Shown piece by piece: positions 3,317 to 23,057 of a DNA stretch of 64,000 bases (its first letter is position 1; each line of letters begins with the position of its first letter). A model generated the notes under the pieces. It did no database searches. It saw only the letters and a program-made list of their open reading frames with translations, and was not told the origin of the DNA. Position numbers and translations under genes: made by a program. The stretch comes from Bacillota bacterium (GTDB lineage Bacteria > Bacillota > Clostridia > Clostridiales > Clostridiaceae), in NCBI GenBank assembly GCA_030705885.1, contig JAUZPN010000001.1, forward strand, positions 1 through 64,000. Reading direction: 5' to 3'.

Positions 3317-4975
3317 TTATAACTTAAATGAGCTTTTTAATGATACAATTCTATTAAATACTAATTTTTCATCAGTAGTATACTTAGAATCTACTGAAAA
3401 GAAGCCATTTCTGATAAACTGGAACTTATCATTTGCCTCAGCATGCTCTACAGCTATTGGCTCAACAAATCCTTGTAACACTTCTAATGAATTTGGATTT
3501 ATTTGCTCTAAGAAATTTTTCCCTTCATTTTCTTCTATATCATCTAAAATTAAAGGCTCAAATAATCTAAACTCAGCTGTTTTTGCAGTAGATGATTCTA
3601 CCCAGTGAATAGTTGCTTTTACCTTTCTTCCTGTAAAGCCTGAACCCGATTTTGTTTCTGGATCATATGTACCATGTACTTCAATAACTTCACCCTTATC
3701 ATTTTTTATAACATCTGTACATTTAAGAAAATATCCACCCTTTAATCTTACTTCATTTCCAGGAAATAACCTAAAATATTTTTTTACTGGAACCTCCATA
3801 AAATCTTCTTGTTCTATATATAACTCTCTTGAAAATGGTACAAGTCTCTTGCCTTGACTTTCATCATTTGCGTTATTATCTATTTCTAGTAGTTCTGTCT
3901 GACCTTCTGGGTAATTTGTGATAACTAATTTAAGTGGTCTCATAACAGCCATTGCTGATGATGCTTTTAATTGCAAATCTTCTCTTATAAAATATTCTAA
4001 CATTTGAGAATCCACTAATGAATTAGCTTTTGAAACACCTATTGCTGTGCAAAAATTTCTTATAGCTTCTGGTGTATATCCTCTTCTTCTTAAGCCTGAA
4101 ATAGTAGGCATTCTTGGATCATCCCATCCATCAACCACTTTTTCATCAACCAGTTGTTTTAATTTTCTCTTACTCATAACTGTATTTGTCATGTTTAATC
4201 TTGCAAATTCATATTGTCTTGGAATATATTCCATTTCACATTCCTTTACGATCCAATCATATAATGGTCTATGATCCTCAAACTCTAAAGTACAAATTGA
4301 GTGAGTTACTCCCTCTATAGCATCTTCTAACGGATGTGCAAAATCATACATTGGATAAATACACCATTTATCTTTTGTATTATGATGTTCTGCATGAGCA
4401 ATTCTATAAATTATAGGATCTCTCATATTAATATTTGGAGAAGACATATCTATTTTAGCTCTTAATACTTTTTCTCCATCTTTAAATTCACCTTTCCTCA
4501 TTCTTTCAAATAAATCAAGGTTTTCCTGAACTGTTCTGCTTCTATAAGGACTCTCTTTTCCACCTTCAGTTAATGTACCTCTATATTCTCTCATTTCTTC
4601 AGGTGACAAATCACAGACATAAGCTAATCCCTTATTTATTAAAAGAACTGCTTTTTCATACATTGTATCAAAATAGTTTGAAGCAAAAAATATACCATCC
4701 CATTTTCCGCCAAGCCATTTTACATCTTCTTTAATTGATTCAACATATTCAGTATCCTCTTTAATAGGATTTGTATCATCAAACCTTAAATTAAATCTTC
4801 CTTTAAATTCTTCTGCTAATCCTGAGTTTAAAGCTATTGATTTAGCATGGCCTATATGTAAATATCCATTTGGTTCTGGAGGAAAACGAGTTATAACTTG
4901 GTTAGTTTTCCCAGCATTTAAATCTTCAATAATTATGTTTCTTATAAAGTTAGATGAATTAATTTCATTAGTCAT
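3317..4975 (-). CDS. glnS: Glutaminyl-tRNA synthetase
   Basis: 552 aa. Class I aminoacyl-tRNA synthetase of the GlnRS branch that charges tRNA-Gln with glutamine in the cytosol. The HIGH motif is seen as [12 protein letters not shown] (near residue 35) and the KMSKS-type loop as [11 protein letters not shown]. The [18 protein letters not shown] segment and the C-terminal beta-barrel anticodon-binding region are complete, and length matches the family. The start has GAGAGG 6 bases upstream. It has its own promoter (5014-5042) and terminator, so it is a single-gene unit between a transposase remnant and the nitrogenase-like island. Confidence 0.97.
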
Positions 4976-5209: not shown

Positions 5210-6598
5210 CTAAGCACTAGCACTTACCGTAGTCGTAAATATTTTTTCAAGCAGTGTAAGTGCTCCTCTATATCCAACATAAGATTTTGATAAAACTACT
5301 TCATAAGACGCTGGAAAACCTATTTCTACTATATAGCCTTTAAGCTCCATGACTAAATCTCTCTCCCATGTGGTACCAAAAATAATAGGTGGTTTGTTCC
5401 CAAAATCTGTTTTTCTCAATTTTTCATGAATTATATAACTATCCTCTTCAAATTCAACATCAATAGAAACATCTTCTGCTATATTTTTATATTCATTAAT
5501 TATAAGATTTCTATATTTTTCTGGAGGATTATCTGTAATAATATGTCTTGCAGGTATTATACCCAGTTGATTTACTAAAAATTTAGTTACTGCTAAATTA
5601 TAAGCACTATCACCTACAACAGCGAACTTTGCTGGGAGTCCCCAAAAATATTCTGCATAAAAATCTGAAAAGCCTTCTAAATAGTTATAATATTCTTTTC
5701 TTTCATCTTCAATAAACTTTTCTGCCTTAGATTTATCTAAACCAGCAAATTCAACTACTTTTCTCAAAAATCCGCTAGTTTCTTTTGCTCCAATAGGAAT
5801 TGTAGGAACATGTAGATATGGCTGACCATATTTTTCTTTTAAGTGTTCTGCAGTTTTTAATCCAAGCCATGGAGATAAAACTAAATTAAATTGTGCATTT
5901 TTAATATTTTTCCATTCTGAAACGCCATTACTTTTATTACCGAACAAAATATTAACCTTTAATCCTATTCCCTCTAAAATTCTCTTTATTTCTGTAAGAT
6001 CTCCTTTCCAGAAAGTATTATGGTATGGTAGAAGGGACCACACATTTACAAGTCCTTGTTCTTTTGGTCCATCATAATCACCTACATATTGATCAATAAT
6101 AGCTTTTGTCAAAATTTCATGACCAGTAAAATTATTGCCTTTAAAACCACCTGTTTCTGCGTATACAATAGGAAGACCTTTTTTTTGAAACTCACCTACT
6201 ACTGCTCCTACATCATCACCAACAATATCTGGAATACATCCTGTCATAACTACAAATAAATCTGCTTTTAGAACTTTAAAAGCAGATTCAATTAATTCCT
6301 TTAGCCTTTTTTCTCCACCAAATACAACCTCTTTTTCATTAATGTTAGAGCTTGGCAAAACAGAACCTCCACCATAACCTCCACCTTGAAATCCATTATA
6401 AAATGATATGCTTGTAACCTGCTTCTGTGCACATCCTGGTCCGCAATGTGTAATTGGTATTACTTTAGGAATAGCAAATGCACTATGGATTGCTCCAATT
6501 GCACATCCATATCTTATTTGTTCAATTGAATTTGACTTTTTAAAAGTATCACATTCTTTAATTATATCATTGGTATATTTTGTATCAAAAATTGCCAT
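5210..6598 (-). CDS. Nitrogenase component-1-like beta subunit (NifK/NifN-like), pair A
   Basis: 462 aa, oxidoreductase/nitrogenase component 1 family (PF00148). The three cysteines that would hold a P-cluster-type 4Fe-4S or 8Fe-7S centre are present: Cys32 (YGCAIGA), Cys56 (GPGC, with an extra Cys52) and Cys121 (TGCIPDIVGDD). The VVFGGEKRLKE segment after them is typical of the family. It starts 21 bases after the pair A alpha gene with a GAGGAG site, so the two are co-translated and should form an alpha2beta2 or alpha-beta complex. No NifH reductase is encoded nearby, so an electron donor must come from elsewhere. Expected in the cytosol and oxygen-sensitive. Substrate unknown. It is clearly related to the pair B beta (similar spacing of all three Cys) but differs widely outside the motifs. 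Confidence 0.88.
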   Translation of the reverse strand: MAIFDTKYTNDIIKECDTFKKSNSIEQIRYGCAIGAIHSAFAIPKVIPITHCGPGCAQKQVTSISFYNGFQGGGYGGGSVLPSSNINEKEVVFGGEKRLKELIESAFKVLKADLFVVMTGCIPDIVGDDVGAVVGEFQKKGLPIVYAETGGFKGNNFTGHEILTKAIIDQYVGDYDGPKEQGLVNVWSLLPYHNTFWKGDLTEIKRILEGIGLKVNILFGNKSNGVSEWKNIKNAQFNLVLSPWLGLKTAEHLKEKYGQPYLHVPTIPIGAKETSGFLRKVVEFAGLDKSKAEKFIEDERKEYYNYLEGFSDFYAEYFWGLPAKFAVVGDSAYNLAVTKFLVNQLGIIPARHIITDNPPEKYRNLIINEYKNIAEDVSIDVEFEEDSYIIHEKLRKTDFGNKPPIIFGTTWERDLVMELKGYIVEIGFPASYEVVLSKSYVGYRGALTLLEKIFTTTVSASA

Positions 6599-6619
6599 TA
6601 TGCCAGCTCCTCTTTAATA

Positions 6620-8125
6620 TTAATTCTTATTTGCAAGTATATATGGATCCTGTTGTTCAAGCCACCAATCTGTATATGGCAGTTCAACATTTTCTTTTAA
6701 ATCTGTATGGAATTTTTTACGGGCAAGTATTTCTAAAATAGTTTCTCCTAAATTTAGAATTCCTTGATATCCTATTGCATGATGACCATCTCCAAGAGGA
6801 GCAGCTGGAATACCCATTCGCGATGCTAAAGGAGCAAGTCCATTATGCCTTATAATTATAAAGTCAGGATTTATATTCTTAAGAAGCCCATAAAACTGAT
6901 ATTGCTGCCCATTACTTACACTAAATTGTGAAACATCACCATAATTTTCAACTAAAAATTTTAATGAATCCTTTTTATCTGCATCTTTACCATCAAATAT
7001 AGGTTCATGATGAAAAGTTAAGGATCCATCTATTTGGACTCCAAGATCTCTGAGTACAGCAATAACACCATGAGCATAAGAAGAACCTGTAGCAACATAA
7101 CCTACCTTACCTTTAAGTAATTTTCTGAGTTCCAATAACCTTTTATTTATTCTGTTATGTTCTTTTGCTATATAAGCCTCTGCTTTTTCTTCCCTGTTAG
7201 TGACTCTTCCAATTTCTCTTATCCATGCATCTGTAGCATGAATTCCATAAGGCTGTGGTGATTTAACATCAATAACTCCAAATTCCTGTTCTAAAGCTGC
7301 TGATAAATAAGATGACAATGTATAACAAAACGAAACGCTTGCAGCAGCTTCTGACATTTGTTCTAAATCCTCTACTGTTGCTAAATCTACAACATAGTTA
7401 ACCCTTAACCCTAATTCTCCAAGCATTGGTGTAAATATATCTTCACCCCATAAATCTATTACATTAACAAGATCTTCCTGTCTTTTAGGATCTTTGCGAG
7501 CTATCTGCCTTAAAATTCCATGATATGCTGCATCAAAACCAGTTGTCCAATGCTTTGACCTAAATCCTTCACAATATGTCGGAATAACAGGTATATTAAA
7601 CTCCTTCTGTAATTTATTTGTTACACTTTCTATATCTTCTCCTATAATTGCTGTTGCACACGAAGTTCCTACAAAAATAACTTTAGGTTTATACCTGTTC
7701 CATGCATCTCTAATAGATTGTTCAAGCTTCTTCAATGCTCCAAAAACCATATCTGATTCATATAAATTTGTATTAATAACTCTTACATTTTCAACTGGCA
7801 AGTCCCTTATTGCTAATCCATTCCTAAATAAAAAATTACTCAATACTTGTCCAGAACCGCAGCCTATTGGAGAATGCTGAATAAAAACAGCTCCTCTTAC
7901 ATTGCTGTATTGACATGCTACCATTTCTTCACTGCATTTTGATCCTTGAGTAAATGGTCCTCTAGCTTCACAAAGTTTTTTCCCACCATTTTCTTTACAT
8001 CCACCGCAAGTATATTCAGAATCTTTTAAAATTTCAGATGCCTTTCCCGTTTTCCATGCAATAATGGTTCCAAGTCTTTCTTCACGAGTTTTTACAATTG
8101 AATTATTTAAATTTAATTTCTTCAT
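6620..8125 (-). CDS. Nitrogenase component-1-like alpha subunit (NifD/NifE-like), pair A
   Basis: 501 aa from ATG at 8125, chosen because GGAGG lies 5 bases upstream. An upstream TTG would overlap that site. Cluster cysteines: Cys71 (VACQYSNVRGA), Cys89 (SPIGCG) and Cys156 (TSCATAIIGED). Cys267 (SFCYTLSSYL) matches the cofactor-binding Cys275 of Azotobacter NifD. At the NifD His442 position an ungapped match to the pair B alpha puts Gly438 (SRMGIP), so this ligand is missing, as in NifE-type scaffolds. Extra N-terminal cysteines 40, 43, 52 and 64 form a possible further metal site. The CEGFRSKHWTTGFDAAYHG stretch lacks the His195-type residue. It may assemble or hold a cofactor for pair B, or be a reductase with another ligand set. 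Function is inferred only. Confidence 0.88.
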   Translation of the reverse strand: MKKLNLNNSIVKTREERLGTIIAWKTGKASEILKDSEYTCGGCKENGGKKLCEARGPFTQGSKCSEEMVACQYSNVRGAVFIQHSPIGCGSGQVLSNFLFRNGLAIRDLPVENVRVINTNLYESDMVFGALKKLEQSIRDAWNRYKPKVIFVGTSCATAIIGEDIESVTNKLQKEFNIPVIPTYCEGFRSKHWTTGFDAAYHGILRQIARKDPKRQEDLVNVIDLWGEDIFTPMLGELGLRVNYVVDLATVEDLEQMSEAAASVSFCYTLSSYLSAALEQEFGVIDVKSPQPYGIHATDAWIREIGRVTNREEKAEAYIAKEHNRINKRLLELRKLLKGKVGYVATGSSYAHGVIAVLRDLGVQIDGSLTFHHEPIFDGKDADKKDSLKFLVENYGDVSQFSVSNGQQYQFYGLLKNINPDFIIIRHNGLAPLASRMGIPAAPLGDGHHAIGYQGILNLGETILEILARKKFHTDLKENVELPYTDWWLEQQDPYILANKN

Positions 8126-8157
8126 ACATGCCTCCAAATATAATAAATATAATAAAT

Positions 8158-8204
8158 AAAATAGATACAGATGTTAAATATCATCTATATCTATATCTAT
8201 TTTT
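8158..8204 (-). promoter_or_regulatory. Stem-loop between nitroreductase and pair A alpha genes
   Basis: A 15-bp stem with one wobble (8158-8172 with 8189-8203), loop of 16 bases. T-rich sequence follows on the minus strand. It could partly terminate or protect the transcript, setting the ratio of nitroreductase to nitrogenase-like protein. Confidence 0.5.
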
Positions 8205-8210
8205 ATACAT

Positions 8211-8771
8211 TTATTTAATTATTGTAACAGTATTTTCTTTTCTTGGAGCAGGCTTAGGTTTTTCTCCTGAGTTATACCCAAAAGCTCCAGAACCAAAAGG
8301 AACATATCCTTTAGGAATGCCAAGTTCTTCAAATAACTGTTTTCCTTCTTCTGTTGTATATAAAAAATTAACAGCATGAATCCAAACAGAACCAATTCCT
8401 AAAGCTTCTGCAGCGAGAAATAAATTACCTAATGCAAGAGCACTATCTGCCACTGGTGCAATAGCCGTTTCATCAGCAGACACTATTATATATGTTGGAG
8501 CATCATAAAATGCACTAAAGTTATCTGCTTTTGCTCTTTCTTTAAGTCTTTCATTCCCATATTTTTCAAAAGCAAATTTAGCTACTTCATTTATTTTTTT
8601 TAACACTTCTTTGTTTTGTATTACAGTAAAATGCCAAGATTGCTGATTCATAGCACTTGGAGCATATTTACCAGCCTCTAATATTTTTTGCAAATCTTCA
8701 GCTTTAATTTGTTCTGATTTAAAAGTTCTTACACTCCTTCTATTTAATATAGTTGTTAAAGCATCGCTCAT
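8211..8771 (-). CDS. FMN-dependent nitroreductase family protein
   Basis: 186 aa. RRSVRTF near residue 12 and APSAMNQQSWHF near residue 37 are the FMN-contact motifs of the family. The ALALGNLFLAAEALGIGSVW segment and the GSGAFGYNSGEKPKPAPRK end are also typical. GAGGGG ribosome site before ATG. It is the first gene of the left operon, 85 bases ahead of the pair A alpha gene, behind a good SigA promoter. These enzymes pass electrons from NAD(P)H or ferredoxin to small molecules. Here it may feed or protect the nitrogenase-like proteins, or act on the same substrate. That link is inferred from position only. Confidence 0.9.
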   Translation of the reverse strand: MSDALTTILNRRSVRTFKSEQIKAEDLQKILEAGKYAPSAMNQQSWHFTVIQNKEVLKKINEVAKFAFEKYGNERLKERAKADNFSAFYDAPTYIIVSADETAIAPVADSALALGNLFLAAEALGIGSVWIHAVNFLYTTEEGKQLFEELGIPKGYVPFGSGAFGYNSGEKPKPAPRKENTVTIIK

Positions 8772-8829
8772 TTTTATACACCCCTCTTAAATAAATATAA
8801 AATTATATTAAATACATATGTTTAATGTA

Positions 8830-8858
8830 ATTTTAAAGCAACTATAGTTTATTGTCAA
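8830..8858 (-). promoter_or_regulatory. SigA-type promoter of the nitroreductase-pair A operon
   Basis: Minus strand TTGACA (8858-8853), 17-base spacer, TAAAAT (8835-8830). It is about 60 bases before the nitroreductase ATG. Confidence 0.75.
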
Positions 8859-8929
8859 TATACAATAATAAAAGTAAAGTTGAATTTTATACTGCAGGAA
8901 ATTATAGTATATTATTAACAAAATTTTTA

Positions 8930-8958
8930 TTGACAAAATCATTATCAGATACTATACT
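8930..8958 (+). promoter_or_regulatory. Strong SigA-type promoter of pair B
   Basis: TTGACA (8930-8935), 17-base spacer, TATACT (8953-8958). A transcript would start near 8965 and carry a leader of about 180 bases before the ATG at 9146. Confidence 0.8.
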
Positions 8959-9030
8959 ATTTATAATACACAATATATATATGAATTAACGGTATTAGTT
9001 TGTGAATATATTTAGACTGACTTTAAATAA

Positions 9031-9070
9031 GAGAGGTCAAATTCGTTATTGAATTTGACCTCTCTTTTTA
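9031..9070 (+). terminator. Intrinsic terminator inside the pair B leader (attenuator-like)
   Basis: A perfect 14-bp stem (9031-9044 with 9051-9064), 6-base loop GTTATT, and TTTTTA after it. It lies between the promoter at 8930 and the first gene at 9146, so it would stop most transcripts unless something lets polymerase through. No competing antiterminator is obvious. Confidence 0.85.
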
Positions 9071-9145
9071 TAAAATTCATTAACAATTATATCTATATAA
9101 TAAATATATTATTAATTTAACCAATTATTTAAAGGGAGTGATTTT

Positions 9146-10639
9146 ATGTCAAACGAAAGCATTAATTTAAATGCTAACACCTGCCCTAATCGAGAATCTC
9201 GTATTCATTCTATCAAGGCATACTATGGAGATGCTGACACATTAATCGATGAAACTCTTAATAAAAAAGTTAAATGGCGTAACCGTGCCTTTCAGCAGAG
9301 CGGAGGATGTGTTCTTACTGCTGGAGTTCAAAGACTTAGTACTGTACGCAATGCAATCATATTAAATCATGCTCCAATTGGATGTGCGGGTCAGCTTTAT
9401 GGTTACCGTGAACTATATAAAAGCATTCCTCCTGAATTTGGTATTCCTCAAACAGATTTCAGATGGATAAGCAGTAATCTTAAAGAAGAAGATATTGTTT
9501 TCGGAGGGGAAAAAAAATTAAAAGATACTATCATAGAAGCTGATGAAAGATATAAGCCAGAAGCTATTTTTATAATCAATTCCTGTGCTTCAGGAATTAT
9601 GGGGGATGACATCGAAGGAGTTGTAACACACGTTCAGCCAAAAGTAAATGCAATATTAGTACCAATCCACTGTGAAGGCTTCCGTTCTCAAGTACCTCAA
9701 ACAGGTTTTGATGCTTTTTGGCATGGAATTTTAAAGTATATTGTACAGAAACCTAAGCAAAAACAAGAAGATTTAGTTAATATAATAGCACCTTTTAGTG
9801 TCACTTGGGGTGACCGCCGAGAAATTAAACGTATATTAGAAAAAATTAATATCAGAGTCAATTTTGTACCTGAACTATCTACAATAAGCGATTTAAAACA
9901 ACTTTCTGAAGCAGCACTTACATTAACTACCTGCGGAAGCTATGGAGATTATCTGCAAAAATCTCTATATCAAGAATATGGTATACCATACATTAGAAAT
10001 GAAGTTCCAATTGGAATTTCCCAAACTTCAGACTGGTTAAGGAAAGTGGCCAAAATAACAAATAGATCTGAACTAGCTGAAAAAGTAATAAAAGAAGAAG
10101 AAGAAGCATTAAAACCACAAATTGAAAACCTGCAAAAATTAATTGCAAATATCAACCCAAGAATTTTTATTAGTGCAGGACAGGCAAGAGCACTTGGTTT
10201 ACCACTGTTAGCTGCAGATTTAGGTATTGAAATCAGCGGAATAAGCACATTAGAACATGACGATTTATCTGTGGAAAATCTTCAAAAAATTAAAGAAAAG
10301 TGCGGAGGTAAATTTAAAATACATGTAGGTGAATACCAATCATTTGAACAAAGTGCTATAATTCATGAAATCAAGCCTCATATTTACACTGGATGTCCTA
10401 TGGGAGGATCTGTATATAAACGTGAAGCAGGTATAGGCAGAATGCATTCATTCCGTTCTGATTTTACTGTTCATGGTCAGCAATTTGGCTACCAAGGAGT
10501 CATAAATTATGGATTTGTTTTATTAAAAGCCTTAAGCAATCCATCTTTAAACAAAAAAATTGGTGAATTTACTCCATCTCCTTATAAAAAATGGTGGCAT
10601 GAAAAAGGAAATCCATTAACTTACGTCAAGGAGGCTTAA
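9146..10639 (+). CDS. Nitrogenase component-1-like alpha subunit (NifD-like), pair B
   Basis: 497 aa, PF00148 family. Cluster cysteines: Cys55 (SGGCVLTAG), Cys80 (APIGCAG) and Cys147 (NSCASGIMGDD). Cys263 (TTCGSYGDYL) matches NifD Cys275. His434 in RMHSF, with a second His exactly 9 residues on (His443), matches His442/His451 spacing in NifD (MHS...YHG). So both protein ligands to a FeMo-co-like cofactor are kept. The CEGFRSQVPQTGFDAFWHG stretch appears to have Phe where NifD has His195, which argues against N2 reduction. AAAGGGAGTG lies 7 bases before ATG. The pair B beta gene starts 4 bases after the stop. A homologue of the pair A alpha, but richer in G+C (line 9301-9360: 26/60). Likely the catalytic alpha chain of an uncharacterised reductase. 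Confidence 0.9.
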   Translation: MSNESINLNANTCPNRESRIHSIKAYYGDADTLIDETLNKKVKWRNRAFQQSGGCVLTAGVQRLSTVRNAIILNHAPIGCAGQLYGYRELYKSIPPEFGIPQTDFRWISSNLKEEDIVFGGEKKLKDTIIEADERYKPEAIFIINSCASGIMGDDIEGVVTHVQPKVNAILVPIHCEGFRSQVPQTGFDAFWHGILKYIVQKPKQKQEDLVNIIAPFSVTWGDRREIKRILEKINIRVNFVPELSTISDLKQLSEAALTLTTCGSYGDYLQKSLYQEYGIPYIRNEVPIGISQTSDWLRKVAKITNRSELAEKVIKEEEEALKPQIENLQKLIANINPRIFISAGQARALGLPLLAADLGIEISGISTLEHDDLSVENLQKIKEKCGGKFKIHVGEYQSFEQSAIIHEIKPHIYTGCPMGGSVYKREAGIGRMHSFRSDFTVHGQQFGYQGVINYGFVLLKALSNPSLNKKIGEFTPSPYKKWWHEKGNPLTYVKEA

Positions 10640-10643
10640 TAAT

Positions 10644-12008
10644 ATGGCTAGTAATTACTTTATAGAAGAAGATGCAACTTCTAAAGAATCAAAAAAGGGA
10701 AATTCAAAACCATTAGAAGCCCCAAGATATGCTTGTGCTTTTGGAGGAGCTTATGCTGCAGTTATTAACATTTCAAAAGCTATCCCAGTTGGTCACGCTG
10801 GAGGAGGCTGCATATTCAACCAAACCTTTGGAACTAATTTTGCCGGCGGTTATCAAGGAGTTGGTTATATTGGCGGCACTGCAAGTCCTTCATGTAACTT
10901 ATCTGAAAAAGAAGTTATTTTTGGAGGAGAAAAACGACTTAAAGAACAATTAACAAGCACTATAGAACTTGTTGAAGGTGACCTTTATGTAGTTCTCGGT
11001 GCCTGCATTCCTGCAATGATTGGCGATGATATTGAAGGTGTTGTAAAAGAAACTATTGATGAAACTGGTGCTAAAATACTTTATCTTAATGTTCCTGGTT
11101 TTTCAGGTAATTCATATCATGGCTACAACGTTTTTTTTGATGCAGCAATTAATCAGTTATTAGAAAAACCAAACGAAAAAATATCAGGTCTAGTAAATAT
11201 TATTGGAATACCACCTTGTTTAAATCCATATTGGAAAGGAACTGTTAAAGAACTTAGAAGAGTGTTCAAAAATTTAGGGTTGAAGCCAAATTTTGTTTTT
11301 GGATACAATGAAGGTTTAGAAAGTTTACTAAAGCTTTCTGCCGCAGAACTTACTATAGTTTTATCACCTTGGGTTGGTGTTTCAGCAGCAAAGCTTTTAA
11401 AAGAAAAATTTGATGTTCCTTATCTGATACATCCAAGTATTCCTGTAGGTCCAAAAGCAACAACTGAATTACTAAGAGAAGTATCAACAATTTTAAATAT
11501 TGATAAAAACTTAGTAGATCAAGTATTAGATGAAGAAGAGAAAGATAATTACTGGCTTTTAGATTTAGCAGCAGACACAGTTGGAATGCTTTCTCCTTCT
11601 TTACATGTTGCAATAGTTGCAGATTCTGCTACAGCAATTGGAACAATTAAATTCTTAGTGAATGATGCTGGCTACTATCCAGTTGTAGCCAGCATTACAG
11701 ATGATCCGCCAGAAGACGTTCGTAATCAAATCACTAAAGAATTTGAAAATCTTGCTTACAATCTTAAACCAGAAGTAATTTTTGAAGAAGATACTTATAA
11801 TATTCATAAGTTATTAAAAACATATAATTTTGGACTATTACTTGCTTCATCTCTTGAAAAATATCTAGCACCAGAGCTTCAAGCTATATATCTTAATGTT
11901 GCCTACCCAGCCACAGATAGATTTTTAATAGATCGAACCTACGCTGGCTACAAAGGTGCATTAACACTTTTAGAAGATATTCATGATAAATTTATACAAC
12001 CTTTTTAA
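10644..12008 (+). CDS. Nitrogenase component-1-like beta subunit (NifK-like), pair B
   Basis: 454 aa. P-cluster-type cysteines: Cys31 (YACAFGGA), Cys56 (GGGCIFNQ) and Cys121 (GACIPAMIGDD), the same spacing as the pair A beta. VIFGGEKRLKEQL and the C-terminal SLEKYLAP, Asp-rich and YAGYKGALTLLEDI segments are family-like. Its AGGAGG site lies inside the end of the alpha gene, so the two are made together. The operon ends at the strong terminator at 12036. It should pair with the 9146 alpha and take electrons from a NifH-type protein encoded elsewhere. Substrate unknown. Confidence 0.9.
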   Translation: MASNYFIEEDATSKESKKGNSKPLEAPRYACAFGGAYAAVINISKAIPVGHAGGGCIFNQTFGTNFAGGYQGVGYIGGTASPSCNLSEKEVIFGGEKRLKEQLTSTIELVEGDLYVVLGACIPAMIGDDIEGVVKETIDETGAKILYLNVPGFSGNSYHGYNVFFDAAINQLLEKPNEKISGLVNIIGIPPCLNPYWKGTVKELRRVFKNLGLKPNFVFGYNEGLESLLKLSAAELTIVLSPWVGVSAAKLLKEKFDVPYLIHPSIPVGPKATTELLREVSTILNIDKNLVDQVLDEEEKDNYWLLDLAADTVGMLSPSLHVAIVADSATAIGTIKFLVNDAGYYPVVASITDDPPEDVRNQITKEFENLAYNLKPEVIFEEDTYNIHKLLKTYNFGLLLASSLEKYLAPELQAIYLNVAYPATDRFLIDRTYAGYKGALTLLEDIHDKFIQPF

Positions 12009-12066: not shown

Positions 12067-12074
12067 ATAGTTTG

Positions 12075-12424
12075 TATGAGTAAGTCTATAAGCCGAGTTC
12101 TGTATTTGACAGTCATCTATCTAGACTTATTGTTTCCAATAAATTCAAGCGATGCACCCGGAGACGGGACGAGCAGCCCCATAAGTCTCCCTATTCGATC
12201 TTGCTCCAGATGGGGTTTACATAGCCGCAAAGTCACCTTTGCGCTGGTGAGCTCTTACCTCGCCTTTCCATCCTTACTCTGTAAAAAATACAGAGCGGTA
12301 TATTTCTGTTGCACTTTCCTTAGAGTCACCTCCACTGGGAGTTACCCAGCACCCTGCTCTACGGAGCTCGGACTTTCCTCTCCTGCTAAAAAAGCAGCAG
12401 CGACTGTCTGGCTTACTCAACGAG
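12075..12424 (-). ncRNA. rnpB: RNase P RNA (Bacillus/type B)
   Basis: The minus strand begins GTTGAGTAAGCCAGACAGTC and contains GAGGAAAGTCCGAGCTC, GGTAACTCCCAGTGGAGG and GTAAGAGCTCACC. It ends AACTCGGCTTATAGACTTAC. GAGTAAG at the 5' end pairs with CTTACTC at the 3' end as helix P1. These are the conserved core segments of the catalytic RNA that trims tRNA 5' ends. Ends are set by P1 and are good to a few bases. Confidence 0.95.
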
Positions 12425-21239: not shown

Positions 21240-22688
21240 TTATAGGCTATCTTGGAAGTCTTCTCTAAATTTCTTCACGAGCTTTTCTTGCCAGTTCGAA
21301 ACTGGTTCCAAACGTCCTACGAAAAAACGTAATGTTTTTGGTTCTTCTGTAAATCGAAGTCCACCGATGAGCTCCCTATTTTCCCAGAGCCAAGTGATTC
21401 TGTCAATTGCGTAATCCACTTGACTGAGTGTGAAGACACGTCTTGGCATTGCGCAACGCACAAGTTCCATAGATGCAAGGTGTTCACTACCATCTGGATT
21501 TCTGTCTTCGCTGAGTGTTCCTCTTTCCATAGAACGAATGCCTCCTGCAATGTAAAGTGCAGAGCACAAAGCTGCAGCTGGATACTCTTTTCCTGAAACA
21601 TGTGGAATAAATTTCATGGCATCTAAATGGCAACCGAGTCCACCAGCAGGTTTTACGACTGGAATTCCTCTTTTGTCGAGTTCATTAACCATGTACTCAA
21701 TAAATTGTGGTCCTTGTGATATCACTTCCATATCCAATGTTTCATCTAGTCCTACTGTAATAGCTGCCATTTCACGAACAGACATTCCGCCATAAGTTAG
21801 GAATCCTTCGTATAGGGTAACAGTTTCCTTCATAGAATCCCAAAGTTCTTTTGTTCTAAGACAAATACCGCCACCTCTTGCAAATCCAAATTTTCTAGCA
21901 GAGAAGTAGATTATATCAAAATTTGAAGCTACCTTTAGCATGATTTCTTTTATACTCAAATCCCTGCACTTTTCTTCTCTCAACTTCATGAAGTAAAGAT
22001 TGTCCTGCAGCAAGCTGGCATCAAGCAGCATCATAATGCCGTGTTCTCTACAAATATTCTTCACTGCTTCTATATTTTCTAGGGAGATTGGCTGGCCCCC
22101 AATGAGGTTTGTTCCTGCTTCCACCCTGACAAAAGGAATGTGTTCTGCACCAATCTCTTTAATTGAATTTCTTAATTTATTTAGATCAAAATTCCCTTTG
22201 AATGGGTCTGTACTGTTTGGAATTAGACTATCATCGCTGACTAATTCAATGACTCTTCCTCCATTTATTACAATGTGAGCTTTGGTCGTTGTAAAGTGAT
22301 AATTCATTGGTACAACGTCACCAGGTTTTACAAAACGTTTTGCAATGAGGTTTTCACATGCACGGCCTTGGTGAGCTGGCAAGAAGAATTTCATTTCTAA
22401 AATCTCTTGAATTTTTGCTTCCAATTCAAAGTACGTTCTAGATCCTGCATAGGCATCATCTGCGTTTATCATAGATGCAAGCTGATTGTCGCTCATGGCA
22501 TTGACTCCACTGTCTGTAAGCATATCCAGGAAAATATCATTATTTTTTAATAAATATAGATTGTTTCCAGCTTCATTTAATGCCTTTTGTCGATCTTCTA
22601 CTGGAGGCAAAAATAGTTTTTGTACTATTCTCACTTTGTGCATTTCTAATGGAATTTCTTTTCCACTAAAAAATTTAATTTTTTTCAT
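21240..22688 (-). CDS. Tyrosine phenol-lyase/tryptophanase family beta-eliminating lyase
   Basis: 482 aa from ATG at 22688, with GGAGAGG upstream; longer starts would run into the T-box terminator. Fold type I PLP enzyme. Lys266 (FSARKFG) is the Schiff-base lysine and Asp223 (LLDASL) binds the PLP ring nitrogen. Arg109 (HQGRACE) and the Arg in MPRRVF are kept from tyrosine phenol-lyase, as is Arg389 in RSMERG, which in that enzyme contacts the phenol side chain (tryptophanase has Ile there). Leu226 replaces the family Arg of DATR, and the KKD after the active Lys is changed, so this is a divergent branch. It is controlled by a tyrosine T-box, odd for a tyrosine-breaking enzyme. G+C is raised (line 21601-21660: 26/60), which hints at transfer. 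Substrate unproven. Confidence 0.8.
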   Translation of the reverse strand: MKKIKFFSGKEIPLEMHKVRIVQKLFLPPVEDRQKALNEAGNNLYLLKNNDIFLDMLTDSGVNAMSDNQLASMINADDAYAGSRTYFELEAKIQEILEMKFFLPAHQGRACENLIAKRFVKPGDVVPMNYHFTTTKAHIVINGGRVIELVSDDSLIPNSTDPFKGNFDLNKLRNSIKEIGAEHIPFVRVEAGTNLIGGQPISLENIEAVKNICREHGIMMLLDASLLQDNLYFMKLREEKCRDLSIKEIMLKVASNFDIIYFSARKFGFARGGGICLRTKELWDSMKETVTLYEGFLTYGGMSVREMAAITVGLDETLDMEVISQGPQFIEYMVNELDKRGIPVVKPAGGLGCHLDAMKFIPHVSGKEYPAAALCSALYIAGGIRSMERGTLSEDRNPDGSEHLASMELVRCAMPRRVFTLSQVDYAIDRITWLWENRELIGGLRFTEEPKTLRFFVGRLEPVSNWQEKLVKKFREDFQDSL

Positions 22689-22744
22689 ACTAACCTCTCC
22701 TTTTTTATTTTTATGATTTAATCTAAGTTTTATATGGAGAAGCA

Positions 22745-23057
22745 AAAAAACGCCCTCCTGTTTGTTCACAAGAGGACGAATACAATACCGTGTTACCACC
22801 TCAATTTACACTAATCTCGCGATAAAGTGCCTCAGCAGGTACATGTAGGAACGTTGTCATTACGGATACCCTGTCGCTATAACGGGCGAAATCCCGTAAC
22901 CAAATACTCAGAAGCAGATTTGCTACCTTTTAAAATTCTACTCAAAAGATGTATTCAGCCATCCTTGTTTTCTGCTACCTTTCACCAACCGGCAGTTCTC
23001 TAACAAAACTTTTGTATGACTTACTTATTCTTAATCATCGTATTTACGTTCTAATTA
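22745..23057 (-). promoter_or_regulatory. T-box riboswitch leader, tyrosine type
   Basis: The minus strand shows stem I (GAGAACTGCCGGTTGGTGAA) and the specifier loop TGAATACATC, with UAC (Tyr) at 22953-22951 followed by GAGTAG. The T-box AGGTGGTAACACGG has UGGU (22798-22795), which pairs with an ACCA tRNA end, consistent with tRNA-Tyr. A terminator stem follows at 22778-22751 (11 bp with two wobbles) and a T-run. Uncharged tRNA-Tyr would turn on the downstream lyase gene. Confidence 0.92.

Follow-up and report, generated by a model that had tools for sequence, protein, structure and literature searches.

The window, the whole 64-kb stretch of DNA that was analysed (part of contig C1), carries two divergent pairs of genes for nitrogenase component 1-like proteins and one gene for a nitroreductase-family protein. 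The locus is made up of the following features:

3317-4975, minus strand: glnS-like open reading frame (from the open reading frame list), one flank of the PF00148 pairs
5210-6598, minus strand: beta chain of pair 1, MarK orthologue of 462 aa; 74% identity to Rhodospirillum rubrum MarK (PDB 9D9U/9FMG chain C), 758 bits; within the MarK clade (100/100)
6620-8137, minus strand: alpha chain of pair 1, MarD orthologue of 501 aa; 66% identity to R. rubrum MarD, 760 bits; hallmark residues kept; within the MarD clade
8161-8194, minus strand: terminator-like hairpin in the gap between the nitroreductase and alpha-1 genes (-18.7 kcal/mol, z -5.7); the stem is A+T-rich and the hairpin no more than suggestive
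8211-8771, minus strand: nitroreductase-family flavoprotein (PF00881, family match), probably no component of the reductase
8772-9145, no strand: intergenic region of 374 bp separating the divergent start codons
9026-9069, plus strand: terminator-like hairpin, a 19-nt inverted repeat plus a subsequent T run (-25.8 kcal/mol, z -7.7), 76 nt 5' of the pair 2 start codon
9146-10639, plus strand: alpha chain of pair 2, a divergent MarD-like protein of 497 aa from an undescribed subfamily; 34% identity to MarD; six-member clade (100/100); best fold match 9FMG chain A
10644-12008, plus strand: beta chain of pair 2, a divergent MarK-like protein of 454 aa; 36% identity to MarK; six-member clade (100/97); three P-cluster-type cysteines
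12073-12419, minus strand: RNase P RNA (rnpB), the other flank of the PF00148 pairs

All five open reading frames between 5210 and 12008 are intact, ribosome-binding sites are present for each pair, and the four large ones match PF00148 with 231-266 bits (cut-off 28.6). For alpha-1 the ATG at 8125, which follows a GGAGG, is a likelier start codon than the TTG at 8137. A previous sequence-only reading had described two intact alpha/beta pairs with six P-cluster-type cysteines each, back to back around a 374-base region and located between glnS and rnpB. The alignment recovered all 12 cysteines, and both the intergenic region and the two flanking genes were confirmed at the positions listed. No family reached its gathering score in an Rfam scan of the 374-bp region, and weak miRNA/sRNA matches below that score were put down to chance. 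The hairpin at 9026-9069 lies in the leader of pair 2 and is a possible attenuator. The glnS gene of this locus is matched in the relatives G175 and G172 and has no match in G029 and G187 at E 1e-100. Elsewhere in the window, a T-box leader (22769-23047, minus strand) was observed upstream of the open reading frame 21240-22799.

Comparison of pair 1 with the PDB by phmmer revealed the methylthio-alkane reductase of R. rubrum (PDB 9FMG) as its match, with 760 and 758 bits and identities of 66% (D) and 74% (K), whereas the next families scored below 100 bits. The R. rubrum active-site residues named in PMC12552129 were used as the reference for a comparison of hallmark residues, and all of them are kept in alpha-1 (C66/C91/C158, C270, H194-W195, H375 and R428-H429). 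This residue set, including Arg428-His429, is common to all 29 sequences of the Mar clade in the alignment. The P-cluster cysteines are present at positions 66, 91 and 158 of the D chain and 32, 56 and 121 of the K chain. In maximum-likelihood trees of PF00148 proteins, pair 1 is nested with R. rubrum MarD and MarK in an alpha clade of 21 rows and a beta clade of 18 rows, both supported at 100/100. Because of its identity, tree position and hallmark residues, pair 1 is judged to be the methylthio-alkane reductase MarDK. The dN/dS of about 0.06 against its 88% orthologue indicates purifying selection and excludes chance. MarD orthologues with 65-88% identity occur in about 30 of the 207 sampled genomes of the clostridial family, which makes these organisms testable hosts.

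In relatives, most of the 20 marDK loci are NifB-NifH-MarD-MarK clusters (marB-marH-marD-marK), which often carry O-acetylhomoserine sulfhydrylase (OAHS), CysK, SAM synthetase and SsuABC/MetNIQ-type transporters, the SAM synthetase and MetNIQ-type genes being assigned by eye from sequence. Neither MarH nor MarB is encoded beside pair 1, so that an adjacent marBHDK operon is lacking; the candidates for these partners are the NifH proteins of contigs C79, C90 and C173, the NifB of C49 and the NifB-like proteins of C20 and C79. Linkage in a marBHDK operon is usual and not essential for the enzyme. In the relative G169, two marD-like alpha genes (505 and 503 aa) stand in tandem and are followed by a single marK (L142 12377-15426).

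The assembly is a 3.0-Mb draft in 249 contigs with 78% completeness, and a profile search of all contigs detected 37 PF00148 open reading frames. Eight of these were assigned by gene arrangement to one nif and one anf/vnf cluster; the remaining 29 resemble Group IV and form 14 pairs (one truncated by a contig end) plus one lone alpha. Three full or nearly full NifH genes are present (C79, C90 and C173, the C90 copy being cut by the contig end), together with a NifB over the cut-off on C49, NifB-like genes on C20 and C79, and two OAHS matches over the cut-off. The proposal that nifH, nifB and all other nif genes are missing is correct for the 64-kb window, in which profile searches found no NifH, NifB or further component 1 match, but not for the genome. 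The idea of an accessory reductase system distinct from nitrogenase, with its Fe-protein donor encoded elsewhere, is supported by these data. The relative G029 (4.35 Mb, one contig) has a comparable nitrogenase-like gene set.

Further component 1 genes were observed in this survey. On C173 (L038 3528-17402), a corrinoid methyltransferase-like cluster includes NifH, and two Group IV pairs, a CysK gene and one for a NifX-like protein come after it; the cluster resembles the type I MGCs of PMC10418091. Lone component 1 alpha genes with no adjoining beta gene occur in this genome (L034 4907-6397) and in G029 (L049 7315-8781). Two component 1 pairs that adjoin anf/vnf-like clusters (L031 5101-7955 and L046 13845-16702) fall between the nitrogenases and Group IV on branches of great length. 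Four Group IV pairs without the Arg-His motif (L037 6297-9065, L033 3949-6694, L038 14097-17023 and L056 6799-9691) represent two more deep lineages.

The nitroreductase gene precedes alpha-1 in the same orientation, with 73 bp between them. Its orthologues in G029 and G187 (78-79% identity) adjoin genes for a P-type ATPase, a permease and an NMT1/SsuA-like binding protein; genes of these kinds are also found in the vicinity of Mar-like pairs. These observations would fit one uncharacterised reductase system of five genes in which the nitroreductase takes part, as had been proposed from the sequence. However, such a system is very unlikely: a nitroreductase adjoins marDK in none of the 20 relatives' loci, pair 2 and marDK are neighbours in no relative examined, and pair 1 already corresponds to a characterised enzyme. 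The five genes do not form a conserved block in the relatives' loci. Since the nitroreductase is absent beside marDK in these relatives, its orthologues sit elsewhere although G029 and G187 both have marDK, and the terminator-like hairpin lies between its gene and that of alpha-1, it is probably best regarded as a neighbour and not as a component of the reductase.

The best solved relative of pair 2 is likewise Mar (260 and 288 bits), at an identity of 34% for D and 36% for K. An AlphaFold model of alpha-2 (pLDDT 85, pTM 0.88, with low confidence for the cofactor loop around 421-440) matched 9FMG chain A best, with Foldseek TM scores of 0.86/0.92 and a VIA-align Z of 42.2 (457 residues, 2.1 A); outside Mar, NifEN matched best, with a VIA-align Z of 33.5. 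Pair 2 is nevertheless not monophyletic with MarD/MarK. The trees, which fix its clade membership and not the deep branching order, place it in a separate six-member clade (alpha 100/100, beta 100/97). This clade belongs neither to the Mar clade nor to the larger group of sequences that carry the Arg-His motif, and it lies apart from the NifD, AnfD and NifE clades. The other five members come from three clostridia (Clostridium luticellarii, Clostridiaceae BL-3 and G169) and from one MAG each of the Synergistaceae and the Syntrophomonadaceae, and a class-wide search of 391 genomes found no relative of pair 2 beyond C. luticellarii. No description of this subfamily was found in the literature searched, which does not prove that none exists. 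As judged from the trees and searches, pair 2 belongs to a small, rare and undescribed sister subfamily of Mar. The label "divergent, uncharacterised" given to both pairs in the sequence-only reading therefore holds for pair 2 but not for pair 1, which lies inside a characterised clade whose gene set is found elsewhere in the genome.

Other known functions of the PF00148 family were rejected for both pairs. The equivalog scores for NifDK, NifEN, VnfDK and AnfDK were below the cut-offs (nifD 122 and 157 vs 653.55; nifE 137 and 170 vs 505.1), as were those for a role in bacteriochlorophyll (BchNB/BchYZ; DPOR_bchN 53 and 43 vs 419.95) or F430 synthesis (CfbD; methan_mark_13 51 and 52 vs 268.4).

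Comparison of the predicted active sites revealed that pair 2 alpha keeps the P-cluster-type cysteines C55, C80 and C147 as well as the cofactor cysteine C263, the equivalent of Cys270 in Mar. In contrast, His194-Trp195 of Mar is replaced by Val-Pro (Ile-Ser in the relatives) and His375 by Glu370, and the Arg428-His429 motif is gone, pair 2 having Gly-Cys-Pro around C417. The residues C55, C80, C147, C263, C417 and H434-S435-F436 are invariant in all six sequences of the clade; since about 40% of all positions in the clade do not vary, such conservation by itself is weak evidence. Both phmmer (against C. pasteurianum NifD) and hhalign aligned H434 to the histidine of the His-Ser-aromatic motif of NifD, which we take to be AvNifD His442. 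The cluster of pair 2 is probably anchored differently from that of Mar. A more specific proposal is put forward tentatively, as a possibility that we hold with less than even confidence: pair 2 may represent a new Group IV subfamily with a Mar-type scaffold, in which the complex Fe-S cluster would be held by the conserved cysteine and the loop-II residue H434 (His442 equivalent), perhaps also by C417, instead of the loop-I His429 of Mar, and which would attack an imported organosulfur compound.

The gene neighbourhood of pair 2 in its relatives bears on this substrate. Genes for an SsuABC/TauABC-like importer lie beside pair 2 in all five relatives, the Syntrophomonadaceae contig ending after the permease. 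The binding protein belongs to PF09084 and reaches 84.5 bits for SsuA_fam, under the cut-off of 163.5; nitrate and thiamine precursors are among the other substrates of this transporter family. A NifX-like gene and a NifH gene are each found near pair 2 in four of the five relatives (NifH in all but G169). CysK occurs in the Syntrophomonadaceae locus only, an HMA P-type ATPase in the Synergistaceae locus, and ThiW (PF09512, 159.6 bits) in the operon of C. luticellarii, the one relative to have it. The C173 NifH of this genome shares 82-83% identity with the NifH encoded in the Synergistaceae and Syntrophomonadaceae operons, while the NifH of the clostridial operons resembles the C79 protein more closely (79-80%); both C173 and C79 are candidate electron donors for pair 2. 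Since the importer genes are conserved in the relatives, the substrate of pair 2 is predicted to be imported and, going by the type of importer, may be an organosulfur compound of small size and polar, sulfonate-like character. In this genome, neither an importer nor NifH adjoins pair 2, which shares 48% identity with the relatives, so their context may not transfer.

The NMT1/THI5-like nature of the relatives' binding protein and the ThiW of C. luticellarii would also be consistent with pair 2 reducing a sulfur-free or thiamine-related compound that is no ordinary organosulfur source. We consider this unlikely, as ThiW is found in one relative only and the CysK and NifX-like neighbours as well as the Mar-like scaffold favour sulfur. 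The retained cofactor cysteine and the histidine aligned with nitrogenase His442 could be read as signs of an enzyme that reduces N2 or another small molecule, like the Group IV-A NfaDK of Endomicrobium proavitum, for which N2 reduction has reportedly been claimed. This function is very unlikely for pair 2, since the relatives' conserved importer genes point to an imported substrate and the genome already holds nif and anf/vnf clusters. Finally, the two pairs are adjacent, and a scaffold role has been proposed for linked Group IV pairs in Syntrophobotulus (Dos Santos et al., 2012; PMC3464626); pair 2 might on these grounds be a NifEN-like assembly scaffold that builds the cofactor of pair 1. 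However, in five other genomes pair 2 has the importer and, in most cases, a NifH of its own beside it instead of marDK, marDK relatives occur without an adjacent pair 2, and the NifE score of pair 2 is 170 against a cut-off of 505, all of which makes a scaffold quite unlikely. The best reading of pair 2 remains an ATP-driven organosulfur C-S reductase, which probably attacks an imported compound different from that of Mar.

Altogether, the locus is likely to encode two separate Group IV catalytic components for sulfur scavenging, pair 1 being MarDK and pair 2 a paralogous sister-subfamily reductase acting on another imported organosulfur substrate. In the proposed mechanism, whose steps are drawn from the protein families, a NifH dimer would pass ATP-driven electrons to the P-cluster, and these would then reach a complex Fe-S cluster of the alpha chain, the predicted site of C-S cleavage. 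Pair 1 would assemble as a (DK)2 heterotetramer that contains a P-cluster as well as an [Fe8S9C] cluster with Cys270 and His429 as its ligands. Its ATP-driven electrons would come from one of the NifH-type proteins of other contigs (C79, C90 or C173), and its cluster precursor from NifB or NifB-like proteins that are also encoded elsewhere. It would split methylthio-alkanes to methanethiol, which OAHS would convert to methionine. Pair 2, its paralogue, would likewise be a (DK)2 reductase that has a P-cluster and a complex cluster of its own and acts by the same mechanism on a different imported organosulfur substrate.

Mar-type enzymes explain how ethylene and methane arise from organosulfur compounds under anoxic conditions. 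The known part of this locus is pair 1, by sequence the clostridial version of a C-S-cutting sulfur-salvage enzyme, and the new part is the pair 2 subfamily. In a published reconstruction of the ancestor of Mar and nitrogenase the cofactor cysteine was inferred; the second ligand was not inferable, as the loop that provides it in Mar is not the one used in nitrogenase (PMC12552129). If there is indeed a Mar-like lineage that has a histidine at the nitrogenase position, the question of the second ancestral ligand would become directly testable.

Compared with R. rubrum MarDK (Group IV-C, 9FMG/9D9U), pair 1 has all ligands of the P-cluster and the [Fe8S9C] cluster and falls in the same clade, but does not adjoin marB/marH. 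Pair 2 shares with MarDK the fold, the P-cluster ligands and the Cys270 equivalent, whereas it lacks His194-Trp195, His375 and Arg428-His429, has only 34%/36% identity and stands outside the clade. With NifDK and NifEN both pairs have the fold, the P-cluster cysteines and the cofactor cysteine in common, and the His-Ser-aromatic motif of pair 2 aligns with the NifD His442 region, yet both are far below the equivalog cut-offs and outside the NifD/AnfD/NifE clades. Mar and Isr assign function to parts of Group IV (PMC12552129, PMC11423573). The isethionate reductase IsrBHDK of Rhodobacter capsulatus, a Group IV enzyme of organosulfur assimilation, has an SsuABC-type importer and NifH as neighbours, as in the relatives of pair 2; IsrD keeps one of the three P-cluster cysteines and misses the cofactor cysteine (PMC11423573). 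With C55, C80, C147 and C263 all present, pair 2 is set apart from IsrD by this published description, and its identification as IsrDK was rejected. Genomes with multiple Group IV pairs, and their links to OAHS, CysK and ABC transporters, were already noted in 2012 (PMC3464626) and in heliobacteria (PMC9147875). Syntrophobotulus glycolicus and Heliophilum fasciatum likewise have many paralogous pairs, some linked to sulfur genes (PMC3464626, PMC9147875), and the Group IV set of this genome, with 14 pairs and a lone alpha, is larger than the nine pairs of the former and the five of the latter.
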